In this document: positions 10,667 to 63,428 of the stretch, piece after piece | Numbering within the stretch: the stretch's first letter is position 1 | Layout of the letters: each line of letters begins with the position of its first letter | Source: Sphaerolaimus hirsutus | Lineage: Eukaryota > Nematoda > Chromadorea > Monhysterida > Sphaerolaimidae | Length of the DNA stretch: 64,000 nt | NCBI GenBank assembly: GCA_964036195.1 | Contig: OZ038456.1 | Coordinates: forward strand, 28,149,188 to 28,213,187 | Reading direction: 5' to 3' | Notes under the pieces: model-generated | The model's input: the letters and a program-made list of their open reading frames with translations, nothing else | Database searches by the model: none | Told to the model about the DNA's origin: nothing | Translations under genes and position numbers: made by a program

Positions 10667-11038
10667 TAGATAAGTGATTGTTAAAATGAAAATATATTAA
10701 AAGATATGAAAATTTGCAATTTTGAGCAAAAATATTTTTTAATCGCAACAATGAAAGCAACAACAAGGTACAAAGTTCTGCAAATTGGCAGCTAGAATCT
10801 TAGGCAGCAGGATAGAAAACTTTGAATAGAATATTGCAGACACTCAAGTTTTTGTAAAATTGTATTTTTATTTTATAAATTTTCCATTTTATTTTATTCT
10901 TCAATTTTCCATTTTATTTATTCATTTTTTTTCTTCTGAGATTTTGCCAACCCTGTTTGTAACGTGCACAAGTGTGGAAAAGTGCAACAATAAGCACCAT
11001 GTATAAGGTATTGTGCACAATCATGGCCATCTCCTCCG

Positions 11039-12688
11039 ATGCGATCGGAATTGTGCGCCAAGCGCTCCTGGTCGACTCCGAGGGGGGGGGCTGTTGATTG
11101 GAATCGGATTTTTTTGACTGAAGGCTTGGGCGAGTCCACGCCGGCCCAGTTGCTGCGCAGCTTAAAGTACGCGTGCAGTGACTGGCAGCCGCGCTTGGAC
11201 AAACCCTTGAACTACAAAAAGAACTGGAAACGCCCACCGTGGGCCAACAACACACCGCGCTTCGGGGGACCCAGTGACAGGTTCTGTAGGAATTCGGAAT
11301 TTGGCTTGGATAGGGGCGGCGATAGGCAGTCTCTCCAACTAGGCATCCCGATGCAATACTGTCCCATATCGATATGGCTAAACGGCGACAGCACGTGCAC
11401 CGGGGATTTTAGGACAAGCCTGCAAAACGTGATGCGCGGCTCTGTACAATCGGGGCTGGGCGACGCTAACAGGCGATATGACTTGGCAATGGTTACCACA
11501 GTCGGGGAAGTGTACCGCGGCTGCCGGTTGTCGACAATTAAGGGATCGTGTGACCTCCAAAGCTGGGAATATGTGGGTGTGGTTGTTGTAAAGACCGTAC
11601 TCGATTATCTCGACACTGTTTACCTCACGGTGCGCGATAAAACTACCAAGTGGATGGAGCTGTTCGTGAAGAACATATATGTTTTTTGCGTGCAACTCCG
11701 GGAGGCGCTGAACAATGGAAACAAACCGCACGTTCCGATTGTGATCTGTGTGACCCAGCCGCTCTACCCTCCGCAACCGGGAATCGCGCAACATAAGCAG
11801 GCAGTGTCCAGTCTATTACTTCTAGGCCGCGACATTGAATCTGCTTTAAAGTATGCGTGCGAGACGATCACTAATGTAGTGGTGGTGCAGCCGCTACATT
11901 ATCTGATCAGAAACCACGAAATTTTGAACCAGTCGACAAAAGAAGACACTGTCATGGGGCTGTACAGCGGGATGGTCACTGAAGATGGGTTACACCTGTC
12001 ACCCTATGGCGCGGCGCTAATGTCCCGGATCGTGGCCAGGGAATGTGTATTTTTCCTGCACGATCACGGGTGCACATCAATGGGAAGGTGTGTCGAAGTA
12101 GGTGGGGTGCCATCTTATTCACATCCACAAGTGCTGCTATCTATTTCAGGTGGCTGCAAAAGCGAGGGGTCACCACTCCCGCAAGCGTACGCAGTCGGGG
12201 GGAGGCAGCGACACTCGAAGGAAATCCAAAGATCGCCGAAAAGGTGGGCCTATGCTGTAGAACACAAACACTACTCTCTATCTCCACAGTACTCTCTGTC
12301 ACCATATCGCGCAAAATCACACCCAAAACCACAGATAGCAAAGCTGGCAGTTCAGGGCGCTCTCGGCGCGATTCAGTGGCCGGCCGCAGCGATAAATGAA
12401 GCGGCAGCGGGGGGCCGTCCGACCGTGGTTCGACAGGCCATTCGAACTACGGGTACCGCGGGAACCAGCGGGGCGGATACGGGAACTGGTGGGTTCCCGC
12501 AGTACTGCTGGGTGGCTTATCTGCTTACGCTGAGAACACTTTTACTGATCGCTCAGGTCTGGTGGCTATCGGGGGCGCGGCGGCTCCCACTTCGACGGGG
12601 GTGGCGCCCGGTTCGAGGGCCGCGGCCGCGGGGGGCGCGGCGGGTACCAAGACTGGCGCCAGGACCGTGGGCGATACGACTAGGGAGT
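11039..12688 (+). pseudogene. LINE ORF1: SGNH-esterase-like protein with RGG tail, frameshifted (left)
   Basis: The open frame from 11039 shows WLNGDST (Gly116-Asp117-Ser118, nucleophile block) and DGLHLSPYG (Asp316, His319, catalytic Asp-x-x-His block), the hallmarks of SGNH hydrolases. The likelier original start is ATG at 11024 (MAISSDAIGIVRQALL), which leaves frame at the G run 11080-11088. After about 12050 the coding signal changes frame: a basic Ser/Arg stretch, then NYGYRGNQRGGYG, then YRGRGGSHFDGGGARF and more RGG repeats ending RGRYD and a stop at 12686-12688. RGG boxes bind RNA, fitting a retrotransposon RNP protein. The same changes occur in the right arm, so they predate the arm split. 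Confidence 0.75.
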
Positions 12689-12834
12689 AGATCGTGCGGT
12701 GAGTACGGGAAAAGACCTATCATAAACATGCTTTACTTCAGCGTGTTTATCATAGGTAATTTCCCAACGTTAAGTGCAACTCTTGATGTCTTATTAGCGT
12801 TGACTGTTTCAACTGTTATTAACACACCACACAG

Positions 12835-12957
12835 GTGCGGGATGCATTACGTCTGTGTCCGTATTGCGCGATGTGTGACAAAGACATTCCTTTTGAGTTA
12901 TGCAGTGCTGACCGGAGACGTGAAAATGATTCAAACTTTGACAATAAAGGGAAATAA
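12835..12957 (+). pseudogene. Cys-rich 40-residue frame between LINE ORF1 and ORF2
   Basis: After an acceptor-like CCACACAG the frame reads VRDALRLCPYCAMCDKDI and onward to FELC, a C-x2-C-x2-C cluster with a later Cys, then a stop. It could be the remains of a zinc-binding N terminus of ORF2 or a piece of ORF1. A donor-like GTGAGT lies at 12700. Mirror copy in the right arm. Confidence 0.4.
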
Positions 12958-12977
12958 CCTGATTCTTTTTCTTCTGA

Positions 12978-12994
12978 TGACAGGAAAGAGCCAG
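12978..12994 (+). repeat. 17-base word inverted at LINE 3' UTR
   Basis: TGACAGGAAAGAGCCAG here and its exact complement at 17114-17130 flank ORF2 of the same LINE. In the transcript they could pair. Mirror pair in the right arm. Confidence 0.6.
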
Positions 12995-13013
12995 ATGCCC
13001 CATGGGGCAGGCC

Positions 13014-13379
13014 TGATACGCACATCTGCCTGATACGCACATTTTCCCGTTTTTTCACTTGACACTTTTTCAAGTGATTTTCAGATATGAGTAAAGTGAA
13101 AAAAGTTGCGCAATGACATTAGTGAACTTTTTCACTTCACTCATATCTGAAAATCACTTGAAAATGTGTCAAGTGAAAAAAAACAGTGAGAAATAGCTAT
13201 TTTTCACTGTTTTTCACTTGACACATTTTCAAGTGATTTTCAGATATGAGTGAAGTGAAAAAAGTTCACGCATGTGATTGCGCAGCATTTTTCACTTTAC
13301 TCATATCTGAAAATCACTTGAAAAAGTGTCAAGTGAGAAAAACGGGAAAATGTGCGTATCAGGCAGATGTGCGTATCAG
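13014..13379. repeat. 366-base palindromic element at LINE ORF1/ORF2 junction (left)
   Basis: Outer ends CTGATACGCACATCTGCC and its complement. Nested inside are further inverted words (TCACTTGACAC...TTTTCAAGTGATTTTCAG) in alternating orientation, so the strand folds into several stacked hairpins. The frame of ORF2 begins inside its right half, so the apparent ATG at 13326 belongs to the palindrome. No clear target duplication. Confidence 0.8.
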
Positions 13380-16300
13380 TGCACCCCCATGCCCCACAGT
13401 TTCACGACAGGCATCTCCGCTGGTGGAGGGGGCCCTAATGCCCCCTTGATTCGGGGGCAGATGGACTCCCTCCAGCAGTCGGAGAGCTCCGGGTTGGGTA
13501 ATGGACGATCTAGAAGTGGCTTCGGCAAGTCACATCAACAAACCGGCACAGTCACAGGTGGGTATTCGGATAAATGTAGTCATTCTGTTGAGAACAGTAA
13601 TAAATGTATTGCTGTTACATACCAGAATGTACATTCAATCAAACACAAGCAACAAGAACTAGCGGAAATCATTAACAAAACCTCGGATGATATTTTGGGC
13701 TTAGTAGAAACAAATACAACAAACAATGCGGAGATATTCAGCGTAACAAATTTTGACACATTTGCTAAACATAAGAAAACCGGAGCGAGGGAAACGGGCG
13801 GTCTACTAGTGTTTGCAAGGAAAAACCTACATGCCATGGTAGACGGTAGCGACTTCCTCGACAAAACGAATGCAGTTCTCTCAGTGGGATTTGACACTGA
13901 CAATGGTATAAAAGTGCATGTGATGATAGTGTACCTCCATGATCATGGAAAAGTAAGCCGTGATGTGGGGTACCTACACAAAAACATGTCAACACTTGAT
14001 GGATTACACAAACAAAAACTGGCCTTCGACAGCACTGGTGATGAAGTGATCATACTTGGCGATTTCAACGGTCACATAGGGAGTGATAACCTAGGAGTGC
14101 GGGGGAACCGGCCAGAAATCAATAAGGTCGGGCATCTTGTCAGAGGCTGGATAGATGCCGACAGTTTGGAGATTTGTAACAAAAATGCTTCGCAGTGGTG
14201 GACATACGAATCCGGAACTAGTAAGACGCTACTCGACTTGGCCCTGCTGGATGCAGCAAAGGCCCACGAGTATACACTGCATCTATCGAATGGAGAGGGT
14301 GGTAGGTCGTTACTTTCCGATCACTACGCTCTCCATTTAATACTGCAGATGCGACATATTCCGCTCCGCGACATCGAAAACACGCCGAAATGGATAGTTC
14401 AGGGGAAAGATGACTCGATGAAATTCTCAGCCAAACTGGAAGAACTTCTTGCAGCGGAAGGTGAGGCAATTGATTCATACCACGACCTGCACGCCGCAAT
14501 GAAGCATGTTGGAGTAGAACACTTCAGCAAGAAAACGAAAAAGTCTCCTGTTTCAAAAACACAACGGACAATTCGGTCAGCAAAACGGGAAATTAACAGA
14601 TTGCGACGACGTCTTCATGAAGGTAAGATCTTGTACGAGGGATTCAAAACTATAAAGTCAAAGGAAAAAGCAAAAATGTTGGCGGCAGAGTCGGATGCAA
14701 AAATGGACAGAATGAAGCGGTCATTAGATAAGGAATTGGAGAGCTCGGGTACAGAAACAGACCTGTACAAACTGGCAAAGCACTTCCGGGAACCGGGGAT
14801 TAAATATGCGATGCTACGATTCAACTCAGGCGAGGTTGCTGCGTCAATCCAGGACTTACAGAAGATATTAGTCGACTTCTGGAACAGAATACAATGCCCG
14901 AACCCTGATGAGTGCAGAAATTGTAGACGACAGCTGTCTCCGCAATGCGATTACATCGAAAGATAAATCGTACTTGCACCACGATTTGACCCTGGGAGAG
15001 GTAAGTGCTGCATGCCGAAAACTTAAGCTGAGAAAATCAAGCGGGACAACAGGGATTTCACACGAGATGCTCCGAACCCCTGGCACCCACCTGTTGGAGA
15101 TATTATGTTCTATTTTCAACAGGTGGTTTCACGGGGAGGAGATCCCATCGGAAGCAAAAACCTGCAAGCTGATACTTCTACACAAAAAGGGCTCGAAGAG
15201 TGACGTGAACAATTACCGAACAATAGGACTACAGTGTAATATTTTGAAATTGTACTGTAGCGTCCTAAATAAACGTCTCCTGACAGCCTTCGAAAACTGC
15301 AATGGATTTGGTGACATGCAAGGCGGCTTTTGGAAACACAGGCGAACGACTGATAACCACATCATAATCCAGGGATGTCTGTCAAGCGGCAAAAAACTCT
15401 CATGTTGCTTTGTTGATGCGGTAAAAGCATTTGACAGAGTTCCGCGCGATAGACTTTGGAGGAAATTGACTCATTTTGGCTACCCAAAACGATTTGTAGA
15501 TGCACTTGAATCAACATACGACAATCAAAAGTGCTATTTGCAATATGCGCATGTCACAACGACGCTCTTGGATTAGAGGCTGGGGGTCAGGCAGGGGTGC
15601 TGCCTTTCACCCAGCCTATACGTGTTATACATGGCAGACCTTCGGACAAGCCTAGAGAGGACAAAAAAGGGGGCGAATCTGGAAGGCAAATGGATCCCAG
15701 CGGTGTTTTTTGTAGATGACATTGTCTTAATGGCCAACAAAGGAGAGATTTGCAAGCTCTGATGGACGTTTTCTCAGAATGGGCATGGTGCTGGGGGGTT
15801 GCCATAAGTCCGCAAAAAAGCCGCGTTCTACACTTCAGACAGACAGCGTCCGAAACAAACAAATGGATGCTAGGATACGACGATAACAAAATGCCGCAGT
15901 TGGTTTCAGAAGTAAATGAAACTAAATACCTCGGCTTGACGATCACTAGTCACCGCGACCCATTTGATAAACAAAAAACACTCTACATACAATGGGGTCA
16001 TACAGCACGCGTGCTGGTCGCCGAAATTGCGGCCTATAGCATGCGACCGCTGTGGGCCACGCAGAGACTATGGACACTTTATGCGATGTCCAAGGTGTTT
16101 TATGGGGTAGAAATTGTCGGACTTAGTCACCTGGCTAGGGACAAGCTGACATCGATTGAGATGTCACTCTATAGAGAACAAATGAGAGCCCCCAGACATC
16201 TATCAAACAGATTACTTGCAATTGAAGCGGACACGATAACGACGACAGGCTGGTACGCGCTGCGCATGATCCAAATGGACGAATATCTGAGAAGTGGCAA

Positions 16301-16940
16301 GGCCTCCACTACGACTCGAACCGCAGCACAAAGGTGGGCAAAAAGCCAAGGGGCTACAAAGCGCAAGAATAGCATTGCTGGGAGAGCGGATATGGCAAAG
16401 ACATGGCTCTCCATATCTGATATGTCCACAACACCAAGCAAAACACGATTAAAGGATATGGCAAAGTATGCATCATGGAACAATCTCAGCAGGGTAGGTA
16501 AAGAACAGGGAAAGACATGCAAAATCAAACGGGTTGTAGGTGCAAATGTGACACCTATATGCCCGAAAACACTCACATCAAACGATTTAGACTGGTTCAT
16601 GCTACGACATGGCCTTTTTATTCAGACAAGACAGATAAATTCAAGTAATGTTAGGGATCTGTGGACATGCTGCCCGTTTTGTCGGAGGGTGGGTTTCGAC
16701 TTCTGGCTAACGGGAGATCACATATTAGAAAACTGCGTGTCAGACACAACGATTGCTTGGAGGATGGAGACAATGCGGTCATTTAAGAAAGGTTGCTGTG
16801 CAGAAGGCTGCGACAAAAAGGCTAAAACCGATCTTAGACGTCTCTTGGAATCTTCAACCTGTCATACTGCGAGAGCTACTTTTAGCAGGAAAATACGAGA
16901 CTTGGATAAACATATGTCGGAACTTTGCGGACCATTATAG
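13326..16940 (+). pseudogene. LINE ORF2: AP endonuclease plus reverse transcriptase, broken (left)
   Basis: Endonuclease motifs: QNVHS, LGLVETN (catalytic Glu), ILGDFNGHIG (Asp/Asn) and LLSDHYAL (Ser-Asp-His). Reverse transcriptase motifs: LHKKGSKSDVNNYRTIG, FVDAVKAFDRVP (motif A), GVRQGCCLSPSL (motif B) and FFVDDIVLMA (motif C, VDD). C-terminal Cys/His cluster CPFC...GDHILENC. Three lesions: an extra C near 14903, a TAG stop at 15574-15576, and a frameshift near 15750 where the frame moves to LQALMDVFSEW. Only the last is shared with the right arm. Confidence 0.9.
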
Positions 16941-37300: not shown

Positions 37301-40300
37301 TGGGATGGGAACCAGTAGACGTTTGGTGTCCTTGTCAACTAGTGTGTGCAGGGCCAATGTCGCGAACTATTTTTACCACTTGTTGCTTGTCTTGTGATAA
37401 CTCCAATGCGCATGGTGCCAGGGCCAATTTCTGGCGCTCTCGCACCACTAATCGAATGGCTATCACTCCGCCAGTTTGTGTTTGTGTTCGCATGCATGCA
37501 TCAATTCCAATCTGACAAAAGGGGCTCATCTCATTTTGCATGTAAATGAACATGGAGCCTCGCAAATGAAATTGTTACATGTAAATATGCATGTGGACTG
37601 GGCACCGTACTAGGGGGTACTCCCAGCCCTGTAAATTTTTGTGTAAAATTTTTAAATGCCATGCCAAGTGTCTCAAGTCATGTAAAATTTTGTGTCTCAA
37701 GTCGTGTGAAATAGCCTGTAAAATGTCAAATGTTATGTCAAGTATCTCAAGTCATGTAAAATACCCTATAAAATGTCAAGTGTCTCAATTCATGTAAAAT
37801 ACCCTGTAAAATGACAATTGTCACTAGGGTTGGAAAAAAACGTTTTTTTTTTAACTCGATGTTTTTTTTAAAAAAAACGTTGTTTTTTTAAAAAAACGTT
37901 TTTAAAAAAAAAAAACGTTTTTTTTTAAAAGCTCCCAGATATGACCTAGTGTCAACATATATAGGTATATCAGACACTGGCAATACTCTGTGATGTTAAA
38001 TATGACCATATAATGGCTGTGGAGCCATGGGATAGCATTATAAGTGGTGATTTGTGTCAAAAATATCCATTTTTCGTCGACATATCGTTCGTATATCGCC
38101 TTATAGTCGAATGTTTGTGACATCAGGTAAAGTTTGGCACGGAATGGTGATCAAACAAGGTTATAAAAGGAGGTTGTTACTTTGGGAGTGAAGTTACACA
38201 CTGTGGAGGTACATGGAAGCACATTACCTCAATATTATATACTACAGCAACATATGACGGCTTATTAACCCATGGTAGCACATAGAAATGGATGCTTTGA
38301 TACTAAAAATGCCACAAAACCAATGAAAACCACCACCAATGTCAATTTGTGTGTGAAATTGCGCGCTTGCGCGCAAAAATTTTGCAAAATACCTAGTGCT
38401 TAGTACTAAAAATTTCGGCCGATCTTTTTTAAAAAAAAAAACATTTCGGACGTCATGTTTTTAATAAAAAAAACGTTTTTTTTATTTAAAAAACGTTTAA
38501 AAAAAAACATCGGCCAACCCTAATTGTCACGTCAAGTTTCTCAAGTCCTGTAAAATACCCTTTAAAATTTAAAATGTACATTGCATAACATTTCATATTA
38601 CAGACCCTTTTACATTACTTTTGACACTTTTCATTACATTTGACATTTTACAGGGTCTGGGAATACCCCAAACCAGTGTTTCGCTTTGGTGAACAAAGCA
38701 ACACATCCTATTATGGCTATGTGATCTGGGATGGGGTAGGTTACAGGGTGGCTCAGTGGTCAATTCTGCAAGTGGAGAAGTAAAAAACCATTTCAGTGTC
38801 AAGGTAAATAATTTGAATAAAAGATTGCAGTGAAATTGCTCATTGTACTCAAATTATTCAGTAAATGTTTTGAATTATTAAATGAAAAATAGAAAAATAG
38901 AACGAAATGAAAAGTCAACTGGCCTCTTAATTAACCAGACTTTTCGAAGGATTTGAGTAAAATTTCATTGAATTAATCAACCTGACAATATTTATATAAT
39001 ATTTATCAGTCAAAAAGTACAGTTCACCCCAATCCCCCACCCTACAAATGGCAATTTTTAAAAAGGGTAATGCATCACAAATTCAGTGAAACAAGCCAGC
39101 TAGGGTTCTAATGGGATACCGAAAGTCGGGTAAGGATCTGAGAAAAATGTTGGAATTTTCCAATCCGATCTGGACAATTGAAGAGACAATAACTGATGTC
39201 GATTGCATGGTCTACTCCATCAGTTGACAAGTGACAACAAAAGTGGTAAGTCAAATGACAAGTGAAGTTATAAGTGGCAAGTTAATTTATGCACTTGTCA
39301 CTGAACTGACTACATAGCTTGACTTTATCACTTACCATGTATCATGTCACTTGTCTACTTCTCCACATCTACTTGTTCAAAAATGTGCACTAGTTCCGAA
39401 CATCCCAGTCCCGATTCCAACTTTGCAAAATGTCAATCACGATCGGAAAAACACCCAGCTCAATTTCAACCCAACCAACCATGTTGCATGCAATGCAGTG
39501 TTCTGCATGTGCTGCGTGCTCCATGTGCACTGCTCTGCACTGGGTCAAGTGAATTCTTCATGTGACCATGTATGTGTATCTATGTATTTTTGTGTACATA
39601 CTGATGTGTATACATACCAGTATGTAGCTTGGCTACTATACTTGGGATTACTATATATGAGAATTGAGTATAGTAGTGCACAAACGGGGCTGTGCCATTT
39701 CGCAAGGGGGTGCCATTCTAATGATTGTTCCATTTTACTGCAGTTTAGCAAAATTGGATTAGTGGTGAGAGTGTGCATGAAATGGATGTCTGATTTCAAG
39801 TGATATGGCAAATCCCATTTAATTGTAAATACAAACACTTCAGTTTTGAGGAATTTCTCTACAGGGCAATAAAATGTGTATGTAAATGTAAATGTGTGTT
39901 TCAGTGTTGTGAGGCTGCGTGCACTCTGTGTTATGTTAGGCTTCTTTGTGTGAATCACGTGTTTCCATGGGGTACAAGTTTACTTGCTGTAGCTTGCCCA
40001 CTTTTACATTGATGGTGTTGTGTTGGAAGGGGGCAACTTCCTGACTTGAATTTGTATTCATAAAAGTTGCATTGTTTGGAAATCTGGGTGCTGGTTGAAT
40101 ATTTCAAAGTTATTTGGCTTGTACATATGTTGAATGCAAATATTGAGCAAAACACTCGGGCACAATGATCAGATGTGTGATTTTGTAAATATACAATGAT
40201 AGATAGAAATATAAAACAAACAGTAAATCAGAAGCCGGGCCATTCTCAGTACAAAAACTAAGGCAGCTCAATTTTCAAAGTTTCACGTGACTGCACTCTC

Positions 40301-58181: not shown

Positions 58182-58343
58182 AGGTGCCACTCACAGACCC
58201 TGTAAAGTGTAATATATTATCCAAAATGTCTAAAGTCAGTGAAAAATGCCAAGAAAAGTTTCAAATTTCCCGTTTTACAGTGTATTTTTCACTGCATGAC
58301 ATTTTACACGGCACTTTACCGTGTAGTAAATGAGTGGCACCAG
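58182..58343 (+). mobile_element. Solo introner-like element outside genes
   Basis: Starts AGGTGCCACTCACAGACCC then TGTAAA and ends GAGTGGCACCAG. These are the same ends that supply splice sites in SLC5A7, but here no exon lies on either side. A 9-base word (AGTAAATGA) occurs just inside and just outside the right end. Confidence 0.6.
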
Positions 58344-60103: not shown

Positions 60104-60229
60104 TTAAACATCAGTAGAATAAATCTGCTCATTTTGATCTACACCATTCGTTTTTGGATTAGATTTCTGTTCATCGTCACTGTGTCCAACCCACATACTT
60201 TTCTGCTTTGAACCCCTTTTCGGGCCATC
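60104..60229 (-). CDS. SLC5A7 last coding exon
   Basis: Acceptor GTGCCCCAG, then DGPKRGSKQKSMWVGHSDDE and onward to YSTDV and TAA: 41 residues. Polar and charged, as expected for a transporter tail. Confidence 0.65.
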   Translation of the reverse strand, partial: DGPKRGSKQKSMWVGHSDDEQKSNPKTNGVDQNEQIYSTDV

Positions 60230-63200
60230 CTGGGGCACTCCCAGACCCTGTAAAATAGCCTGCGAAATGTCAACTGTCATGCAAAGTGTCTAAAGTAGGG
60301 GTAGGAAGGGGGGGTTACCGCCCCCCACCAAACTGCCCAGCTATCTATATATCCCGGAGGCGAAATTTTGGCCTACTATCCCTTAACCCCCCCCCCAAAT
60401 CTGCCAGCTATCTACTTATCCGGAGCGATAATTGAGAAACTATAACCCAATTATCGCTCAAAATCGCTATTTTTCATACCTTTACATAGATTTTCACCTC
60501 CAAAATCACTAGTTCATGCGTCTAACTGCCTATTTTCAGTTATTTTTAGTACTATATGTCCTTATATACCCCTTTTTAGCCATTTTTCACCTACTTTTAG
60601 CAATTTTTATTCTTTTCCTCCCTTCTATGCCCATATATTGAACCCCCGTGAACCCCCCCCCCCCAACCCCCCCACAAAAATTGTCAGCTGTCTATCCCTC
60701 CGGAGGAGCGATTTGCTGTCTGTCCAACCTCCCGGAGGGTCGAAATCTAGTATACCCCTGGTCTAAAGTCATGTAAAATGCCCTGGAGAGTAAGAAACTA
60801 GTTAAACATTTTACATGACTTTTGACACTTTACATATGACACGAGACTTTTCGCAGGTCAGTTTACAGGGTGTGAGAGTGGCACCTGTATTTTTGCGCCA
60901 CCCTGCACTTGTCTGATTTCTGGCTGGTAAGTGTCCATTTTGTGGTCGTTGGTGATTGGCCGGGCCTGGGGTGTGGTTCAGAGTTGTTAAAAGTACTGAA
61001 CTTTTTTTCAAAGTATACTTAAATGTAAAGTATTGATTTCTTACACACCCCGTGAGTACAGAAAGCGTAAAGTATTTTTTCTACTTTTACTCATGAGTAA
61101 ACATGAGTAAAATAGTTTTCCTCCTAGAAACGTAAAAGTATGTATTTTTTGGAATTTTGCCCCAATTTTCACTCAAAATCACTAATTTTCGTACCTATGA
61201 CAATTTTTACCTTCAAAGTCACTAGTTTGTGTGTTTTGTGTTTATTTTCAGCAATTTTTCCCCTATTTTCACATTTTTCTCCTTTCTTCTACATCTATGC
61301 CTTCAAAAAGCCTATAACAAAACCTATCTGAAACACCTTCCTATCCTTTCTGTACTCGAGTATTTTAACAAAGTATACGTCAAAGCGAGTACAGATACTT
61401 TTTCAAATACCTATATGTAAACGTATTTACTTAGTACTCGAGTATACCTACGTACTTTTCCAGTAAACATAAAGTATTAACAACTGGTGTGGTTTGAGGA
61501 GGGGAGGTGATCGGTTGATCTAGTCTAGGGAAATTGAAGAGTTTGCTTCCAAAACTCGATAACTCCATGTTTTTCAGTTGTGTGAAAATTGCATTTGAAA
61601 CTTTGAGAGTGGCCTGAGCGTCCACGCTTTGAGTGACAACCCTTGCCCTATACTTTTTGAAAAGCCAACGAATTTCTCTACTTTTTCCATAATTACAATC
61701 CTCTGGCCGGCGAATATGGCTAGAGTCAGGGCCATTTTACTGTCGTTAGGGCAACAAATTTAACGAACAATTTTTTTTAACGTGTTTCGGATGCTAACTT
61801 CATTTTTGTATGGGATTTGTGTGATTCTTCTTTAAATTTATAACGAGTTTCGAATGCAAAGTTTTTTCAGTGGATATATCGAGTTTCGAGTGAAAAATAT
61901 GATAGATATTTATGGAGTTATCGAGTTTCGAGTGAAAATTCACCATTTTGATGGTGGAGATATCAAGTTTTGGATGAAAATTTACACTTTTTTCAAAAAT
62001 CGGTGTCGCTATCTCGGGAACGGTGTTAGATATTGAGTTGATTTTTTTACATCATATATACACATGTGCGCTTATATGAGATCCACACCTAACAAAATTT
62101 CTTCGCTTTGGTTGTTATCGAGTTACGGAACCAAACGCCTAATTACCCTCGGTCATCGGATGAGTCCCCTCGAATATCCCCAGATTAATGGAACCTGACC
62201 TAGAGCGCCGACCTGGCGGAAGGTCGAAAATCTATCGGGCGGATGCCCTATACTACAAAATCTGTAGGGAGAATTAAATCTGGCGCTAGGGGGTTCTTGG
62301 GGCAAATATGGTATAAATCCTTTGGCGCTTCTGATGTGCTCAGGGCACTGGCCCATGGGTCGATTCGGCGGCGTTTTTACTCCACTGGCAGGGTTGGTTT
62401 TAGTAAAATTCTTCTTACTAAAATTGTAGTAAAATTGTATTTTTATTTTTATTATAAAAAAATTATTTTCATTTTATTCTTCAATTGTCCATTTTATTTT
62501 TTTACTGTTTAATTTTCCATTTTTATTTATTAATTTTAATTTGTTATTTTAGTTCATGACCAGGATTGGTTTTTGTAAAATCCTTTTACTAAAATTGTAG
62601 TAAAATTGTATAAATATTGTATTTCATTTTTATTTTATTCATGTTTTATTTTATTTTTCAATTTTCCATTTTATTTTTTTTCTCTGAGATTTTGCCAACC
62701 CTGTGCACCGGAAGTGGCTGCGCACGCACTCACCCTGCTGTCCAGGTCCTTGCCGTCGTCCAAATGACTGACGCCCCACAACTTCGAGTGGATCCATTCG
62801 GGCAGGACCAGTCTCGCCTGGGGGCACTCCCAGACCCTGTAAAAGGCCCCGTAAAGTGTCAAATGTCACACAGTGTCAAACGTCATGGAAAATGCCCTGC
62901 AAAATGTCATGTGTCATGCAAAAAGCTAAAAATGGCAAAAAAATTAAAGATTAAAAGAACGTACGGCACTTGGCAGCCAGCTAAAATTTCGCAATCGTTC
63001 TATAAATGGGTTGAACGCAGCTAAAATAGGCTAAATACGTGGTGATACCCCTATTTTGAATCTATTTTAGTGTTTTTCAACCCATTTATAGAACGATTGC
63101 GAAACTTTGGCCGGCTGCCAAGTCCCGTATCATTCTTTTAATTTTTATTTTTTATGCAATTTCATCTTCTTGCATGACATATGACATTTGACAGGGTCAT

Positions 63201-63428
63201 TTACATGACTTTTGACACTGCATGTCATTAGACATTTGACAGGGCTTTTTACAGAGTCTGGGACTGGCACCAGGGCGCTCACCGAAACGATCACCAGCAA
63301 AGTGAGCAGCATGGCGACCGTTTTGAATGGGAACTGGGTGCCGTATTCGATAGTGGACGGCCAGCCCAGCGCCGGCTCCCCTCCCAGACACCGCACCGTC
63401 CAACCGAATACGTAGCCGATGAACGCGC
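60104..63428 (-). CDS. SLC5A7: High-affinity choline transporter, C-terminal exons (5' end outside window)
   Basis: ChT imports choline with Na+ into cholinergic terminals, the limiting step for acetylcholine synthesis. Coding exons: complement(63283..63428), complement(62734..62817), complement(60885..60965), complement(60104..60229). All junctions are GT-AG and in phase, giving about 145 C-terminal residues and a TAA stop. The first exon reads GAFIGYVFGWTVRCLGGEP and later FPFKTVAMLLTLLVIVS, matching human CHT1 GAVAGYVSGLFLRITGGEP and FPFKTLAM; this is a late transmembrane segment. The next exon (LPEWIHSKLWGV) fits LPPKLDVFDAVV after the last membrane span. The last two exons are a hydrophilic cytosolic tail without clear family similarity and rest on phase and splice sites. 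The gene is convergent with FEZ. Upstream exons lie beyond 64000. Confidence 0.82.
60230..60884 (-). mobile_element. Introner-like element forming an SLC5A7 intron
   Basis: On the gene strand the intron starts GTGCCACTCTCACACCC followed by TGTAAA and ends TTTACAGGGTCTGGGAGTG followed by CCCCAG. The ends are imperfect inverted repeats (about 19 of 25 positions by eye), so both splice sites lie inside the terminal repeats. The interior has the family's tract of TGTAAAATGCC-like and GTGTC-like words and a nested hAT element (60296-60760). Confidence 0.72.
60296..60760. mobile_element. hAT-type element nested in SLC5A7 intron element
   Basis: Duplication GTCTAAAG (60288-60295, 60761-60768). Diverged relative of the CAGGGGTCTCC family (right end ATACCCCTG; CTATCTAT words). 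Confidence 0.85.
60885..60965 (-). CDS. SLC5A7 cytosolic-tail exon
   Basis: 27 codons, phase 0 at both ends, acceptor CACCCCAG, donor CAG|GTGCCA. The donor lies inside the terminal repeat of an introner-like element. A hAT element begins 14 bases upstream, beyond the acceptor. No family motif; support is the open phase-compatible frame. Confidence 0.6.
60979..61486. mobile_element. hAT-type element, CAGAGTTGTTA ends
   Basis: Duplication GTGTGGTT (60971-60978, 61487-61494). The duplicated word lies in the acceptor region of the SLC5A7 exon at 60965, so the insertion is 14 bases from the exon. The interior is rich in AAGTA/TACTT words. Confidence 0.88.
61495..62388. other. SLC5A7 intron interior
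   Basis: Contains a short direct repeat of TATCGAGTTTCGAGTGAAAA (around 61860-61970) but no exon or full element that I can support. Confidence 0.5.
62389..62703. mobile_element. CAGGGTTGG-ended A/T-rich element in SLC5A7 intron
   Basis: Ends CAGGGTTGG and CCAACCCTG. The interior is nearly all A/T with TAGTAAAATTGTA words and a probable internal duplication. The flanks TCCACTGG and TGCACCGG are an imperfect duplication. Related sequence borders the LINE in both arms (9768-9960 with 10840-10955; 25980-26060 with 26940-27090). Confidence 0.7.
62734..62817 (-). CDS. SLC5A7 exon after last membrane span
   Basis: 28 codons, phase 0 at both ends, acceptor GCCCCCAG, donor GTGAGT. Encodes ARLVLPEWIHSKLWGV and onward to DSR. 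Confidence 0.78.
62818..63282 (-). mobile_element. Introner-like element forming an SLC5A7 intron
   Basis: The 465-base intron begins GTGAGCGCCC and then TGGTGCCAGTCCCAGAC, and ends ACAGGGTCTGGGAGTGCC then CCCAG. Terminal repeats of about 31 bases match in most positions, and the acceptor AG is the outer edge of one of them. The interior holds a second inverted pair (about 62925-63010 and 63070-63150). Confidence 0.72.
63283..63428 (-). CDS. SLC5A7 exon with late transmembrane segment
   Basis: Donor GTGAGC. The acceptor chosen is GCGCAG just before the GAFIGY block; an earlier acceptor (for example TCTACAG, about 100 bases upstream) is possible because the frame stays open for some distance. 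Anchors the family call through LGGEP and FPFKT. Confidence 0.85.

Follow-up and report, generated by a model that had tools for sequence, protein, structure and literature searches.

Short hairpin transposons with splice signals in their ends as probable introns in the nematode Sphaerolaimus hirsutus

The genome of Sphaerolaimus hirsutus contains thousands of copies of a short transposon, which carries splice signals in its ends and which, once inserted into a gene, is very probably removed as a new intron. As judged from the sequence, the introner finding is real and its mechanism is that of introners, with splicing itself predicted. We describe the family starting from the choline transporter gene (CHT, SLC5A7) on the minus strand of the window, as we term the whole 64,000-nucleotide stretch analyzed here (C9:28149188-28213187), where introns B and C are copies of one inverted-repeat element. 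The features of this gene are, in window positions:

63271..63428, minus strand: choline transporter exon upstream of intron C (GAFIGYVFGW...VSVSAL)
62821..63270, minus strand: introner copy C, a near-perfect 450-nt palindrome with donor GTGCCAGTCCC at 63270 and acceptor GGGAGTGCCCC at 62821
62818..62820, minus strand: CAG after copy C, predicted 3' splice site and right copy of the duplicated CWG
62734..62817, minus strand: choline transporter exon downstream of intron C (ARLVLPEW...DLDSR), with donor GTGAGT at 62733
60885..60923 or 60885-60902, minus strand: candidate short exon before intron B, ending ...GCAAAAATACAG, with an uncertain 5' edge
60230..60884, minus strand: introner copy B (intron), GTGCCACTCTCACACCC ... 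GGGTCTGGGAGTGCCCCAG, containing additional internal sequence
60104..60229, minus strand: last coding exon (DGPKRGSKQ...QIYSTDV, stop)

In both introns the element extends from a donor end, GTGCCACTCCC, to an acceptor end, GGGAGTGCCCC, and is flanked by a duplicated CWG, the left copy of which is CTG at intron C (63271-63273). An earlier note on this DNA had described two introns of the gene as bounded by inverted terminal repeats, and this we confirm: CACTCCCAGACCCTGTAAA occurs at both ends of each, exactly at 60236 and 62825 on the plus strand and with 2 mismatches at 60862 and 63248 on the minus strand, and the inverted arms of B (60236-60280 and 60836-60880) and of C (62817-63029 and 63062-63274, 213 nt) are the arms of the element. 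The RNA fold of copy C has a calculated energy of -259.3 kcal/mol (z -26.9). On the minus strand, with slashes marking the junctions, intron B reads ...AAATACAG/GTGCCACTCTCACACCCTG...CAGGGTCTGGGAGTGCCCCAG/GATGGCC, and intron C reads ...AGCGCCCTG/GTGCCAGTCCCAGACTCTG...CAGGGTCTGGGAGTGCCCCCAG/GCGAGACTG. As each intron equals the element plus one CWG, its removal restores the reading frame.

For intron C, the acceptor proposed earlier at the repeat edge stands, whereas the donor proposed about 10 bases outside the element (63282) fares less well. The two candidate donors, CTG/GTGCCAGTCCC at the element edge (63270) and GTGAGC, lie 12 nt apart and are both in phase 0. Using the edge donor, the joined peptide scores 23.4 and 21.7 bits against solved choline transporters and aligns without gap for 4-6 residues past the junction, compared with 18.9 and 16.0 bits for GTGAGC, where the alignment is gapped at the junction or stops short. 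GTGAGC is nevertheless the stronger consensus donor, and with only 4-6 residues crossing the junction the support for the edge donor is modest. Most likely both splice sites of C lie at the element edges, while the alternative 12 nt away could still serve. A further introner of a divergent subfamily, located just beyond the window, splits the same gene at VMS/SSDSSILSASS, and the peptide joined across this site aligns without gap to CHT1 of known structure.

The delineation of intron B depends on the putative short exon between the 62733 donor and the element, without which B would be merely the 3' end of a longer intron. It is conceivable, if somewhat doubtful, that this exon is unused and that the element forms the 3' part of one long intron from 62733 to 60230: the nearest acceptor, before 60923, is lost in the tandem copy, and the protein region is too little conserved for a test. 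Arguing for a separate intron B, the element has CAG at both edges and a phase 0 junction, like the copies examined by protein alignment. A second copy of the 3' part of the gene lies ~24 kb away (L069-L071; window-scale coordinates ~80000-88000), with 158/162, 91/93 and 123/126 identical positions in the three compared exons and 93-96% identity over the long matches overall; in both copies, introns B and C have elements at their edges.

Throughout the 348-Mb assembly (762 contigs), a search for CAG plus the donor end, allowing 2 mismatches, found 7045 places, and the reversed-pattern control gave 0, excluding chance for the terminal repeat. CTG plus the donor end matches 6808 places, a count that overlaps with the former because the two patterns are one base apart. 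Sampled copies yield a 190-bp consensus close to a perfect hairpin. Its outer ends differ, however, being GTGCCACTCC on the donor side and GGGAGTGCCCC on the acceptor side, so that the terminal inverted repeat (TIR), read from outside, starts with GGGGCAC at the acceptor end and with GTGCCAC at the donor end. When exact ends and a spacing of 130-160 bases between the anchors were required, 62 copies had one donor and one acceptor end, compared with 2 donor/donor and 1 acceptor/acceptor copies, indicating that the two ends are specialised and that the spreading form is an asymmetric element with one end of each kind. Two further members lie in the window outside the gene:

58184..58340, plus strand: copy A, CAG/GTGCCACTC ... 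GAGTGGCAC/CAG, with symmetric donor/donor ends and the target-site duplication (TSD) CAG
38647..38669, plus strand: acceptor-like end of a damaged copy, TTTACAGGGTCTGGGAATACCCC, with another repeat interrupting the sequence on its left

The window also holds a LINE-like inverted pair, 10994-16937 (plus) and 25895-19951 (minus); the plus copy matches an endonuclease domain at E 3.6e-9 and, weakly and below the model cut-off, reverse transcriptase, and the minus copy was recognised solely through similar reading frames. In the mitochondrial COX1 (L094), AGR reads as Ser at conserved sites and TGA as Trp, and ATP6 follows directly after COX1. These codon assignments speak against a tunicate, a vertebrate or a cnidarian, and the gene order may be informative about the phylum.

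The flanks of the 62 exact donor-acceptor copies are CAG-CAG in 28 cases, CTG-CTG in 19, CTG-CAG in 8 and CAG-CTG in 7, the W base thus being mismatched in 15. In a sample of 46 copies with both ends found, a few of which are duplicated places, a left CAG (n=28) is accompanied on the right by CAG in 22, CTG in 2 and another triplet in 4, and a left CTG (n=18) by CTG in 10, CAG in 5 and another triplet in 3. C precedes CAG in 15 of 20 copies and G follows CTG in 8 of 10, indicating a preference for CCWGG. The flanks have a GC content of 0.55, compared with 0.41 for random 60-mers of the window, and are alike for the two edge types (CTG 0.554, CAG 0.546). The target of a zebrafish Harbinger is likewise centred on CCWGG.

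Within the PHIS (PIF/Harbinger-ISL2EU-Spy) superfamily, duplication of CWG is the defining feature of the NuwaI group (PMC4482050). With this Harbinger-related group the present family shares, in addition to the matching CWG duplication, an animal host. NuwaI TIRs usually start with GGG (PMC4482050); of the two ends of the present family, the acceptor end starts with GGGGCAC and the donor end with GTG. Mobilisation by a NuwaI-like PHIS/Harbinger-type transposase with CWG specificity would fit this match. A PF13359 search giving at least 163 matches, in which 150 of 306 candidates were scored and two families examined, did not find a transposase with the introner ends. The two families end, at the side seen, in GGGGCC followed by AAT/ATT, closer to the ANT type (Pangu), and were rejected as the autonomous partner based on this difference at that side. 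The first occupies more than 100 places (loci L039-L068 and L072-L073 cover both families), and of 30 PF13359 copies all except L045 (89%) match one of the two families at ~97% or more. In the second family, the transposase gene contains an introner-like palindromic intron, GTGGCAATCC...GGATTGCCCC/CAG (L073, ~1221-1418).

Taken together, we consider it highly probable that these introners are MITE-like, non-autonomous DNA transposons whose insertion at CCWGG-like sites duplicates CWG. At its left end the element would provide a GT donor immediately after the duplicated CWG, and at its right end a C-rich stretch followed by the second CWG, the AG of which would act as acceptor when W is A. Excision of the element together with one CWG by splicing would then yield the original reading frame.

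The earlier proposal that the family inserts as introns gains support from copies in unrelated genes, comprising PRP8, PRMT5, carnitine acyltransferase, a COMM-domain gene, lipase, a chondroitin synthase-like gene and bestrophin, where removal leaving one CWG restores a conserved peptide. We removed each sampled element with one CWG, translated the join and searched the junction-spanning peptides against Pfam at E<=0.01. The CAG copies yielded four families (carnitine acyltransferase, PRMT5, COMM and PI-PLC-Y) among 32 sense peptides (19 loci) and none among 26 antisense peptides (17 loci); the CTG copies likewise yielded four (lipase, bestrophin, CHGN and glycosyltransferase 11) among 28 sense peptides (12 loci) and none among 31 antisense peptides (16 loci). 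Overall, 8 of 35 distinct loci gave a match and 27 did not. The COMM, PRMT5, carnitine acyltransferase, lipase, CHGN and bestrophin matches span the junction. The PI-PLC-Y match is weak (E 0.005), a C2 match in the same peptide beginning just past the join, and the Glyco_transf_11 match is below its cut-off and reaches only a few residues before the join. The fucosyltransferase-like CTG copy (L089) was set aside, its Pfam match being weak and below the model cut-off and solved-structure support being absent. The PRP8 peptide (L037, whose flanks recur at a second place, L038) is gapless at the join, with one 2-residue gap ~19 residues upstream, the bestrophin peptide (L093) is gapless over residues 1-73, and in the gastric-lipase alignment there is a gap of one residue, placed two residues ahead of the join. 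By protein alignment, elements occupy the predicted introns end to end in PRP8, PRMT5, COMM, carnitine acyltransferase, lipase, CHT and other genes, and for CAG-ending copies the element edges and the TSD coincide with the predicted splice sites with the frame restored.

These alignments also bear on the possibility that old introns were invaded later by an ordinary MITE, the coincidence of element ends with splice sites being accidental or selected afterwards. Copies do exist outside genes, such as copy A, and the CHT gene seems to hold a non-element intron (donor 62733 to ~60923). Still, in PRP8, PRMT5, carnitine acyltransferase, COMM, lipase and CHT alike, the element ends coincide with the junction and a single additional CWG is present, which makes later invasion very improbable; at the lipase site it is largely refuted by an uninterrupted paralogue at the same codon. 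The case that the earlier note had named as refuting its proposal, old introns in which the repeat landed later, therefore does not fit the data.

That paralogue was obtained by searching the joined lipase peptide of the element-bearing copy (L087), which is split near residue 39, against the same genome. Located 5 kb away (C1:12071093-12071278), it is 97% identical over residues 1-62, uninterrupted and, unlike the gastric-lipase alignment, free of gaps; a second paralogue (C14:20007735) is 83% identical over residues 8-62 and also uninterrupted. These intron-free homologues point to intron gain at this one site, although intron loss could also have produced them. Harbinger-type elements are capable of precise excision, and a third paralogue (L026) bears an introner at the same codon as L087, both of which would suit an empty site that arose by excision rather than one never inserted into. 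We regard such an origin as unlikely, as the C14 paralogue is likewise empty and the introners of L026 (193 bp) and L087 (323 bp) belong to different length classes, suggesting two independent insertions at one site and thus an apparent parallel gain. The L087 element aligns along its length best with those of L012 and L093. Common ancestry of the L026 and L087 introns was considered and finds no support, the similarity of the elements (0.888 over 188 aligned bases) lying near the mean of 0.876 for 378 pairs and their length classes being different.

Copies ending in CTG, 26 of the 62 in the strict set, have no AG at the edge and would need a non-AG or a displaced 3' splice site. They are about as common as CAG copies: exact donor ends flanked by CAG and CTG number 49 and 49 on C1 and 39 and 32 on C2. 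Together with the symmetry of the mismatched pairs (8 and 7), this indicates that sites offering an AG are not in excess across the genome. Selection favouring a right-edge AG, seemingly visible in the small sample (5 CTG to CAG compared with 2 CAG to CTG), was accordingly rejected on the genome-wide exact counts of 8 and 7. One CTG-CTG copy outside the strict set sits on the sense strand in a conserved bestrophin exon (L093), and L089 is a weaker case of a CTG copy inside an exon. In L093 an AG lies upstream of the edge, GTGAG/TGCCCCCTG, the use of which would add three codons; L089 has no such AG. The options for CTG copies are thus GT-TG splicing, an AG upstream of the edge, or damaged alleles.

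The last option extends to the idea that many exonic copies, above all the CTG-ended ones, are recent unspliced insertions that break genes, as heterozygous or pseudogene alleles. The frequency of CTG copies and the presence of at least one copy in a conserved exon with no 3' AG at its edge would agree with this. Unspliced insertions would, on the other hand, not be expected to give Pfam matches in 8 sense and 0 antisense cases, and the bestrophin copy, only 85% identical to the consensus, is not fresh; we judge this explanation improbable. A spliceosome that accepts either 3' edge, treating CAG copies as GT-AG introns and CTG copies, which have no AG at the junction, as GT-TG introns, perhaps because the near-perfect hairpin draws the two edges close to each other, is a speculative and rather unlikely solution. 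Human GT-TG introns, in which the U2 spliceosome uses TG as 3' splice site, are described in PMC2374985 with TG serving solely as an option in addition to a different 3' site and never by itself, whereas a CTG introner would need TG alone or a nearby AG.

The introner survey of Gozashti et al. 2022 (PMC9860276) lists families whose members, counted as introns, number from 5 to more than 2000 per genome, and reports introners in only two animal groups. Known introners share with the present family that elements with TIRs and TSDs become introns, that the mRNA is restored and that GC-rich genic regions are favoured, and one known family with its own 5' splice site and a 3' site from the TSD has the same arrangement (PMC9860276). 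Here the TSD is the 3-bp CWG and the donor ends number ~7000, a measure that differs from the intron counts of the survey (PMC9860276). The term 'Harbinger' is absent from the main text of that survey (PMC9860276), and among the titles and abstract beginnings of the open-licence literature we found no report of this introner family.

Where introns come from is an old question, and here an animal genome holds a very large introner family, which may still be active. Its TSD can be recognised and its two ends are specialised; one paralogous site is empty, and copies reside in core genes, among them PRP8, whose product belongs to the spliceosome. Intron birth, the recruitment of splice sites and the fate of insertions that lack an AG would thereby be directly testable within one species.
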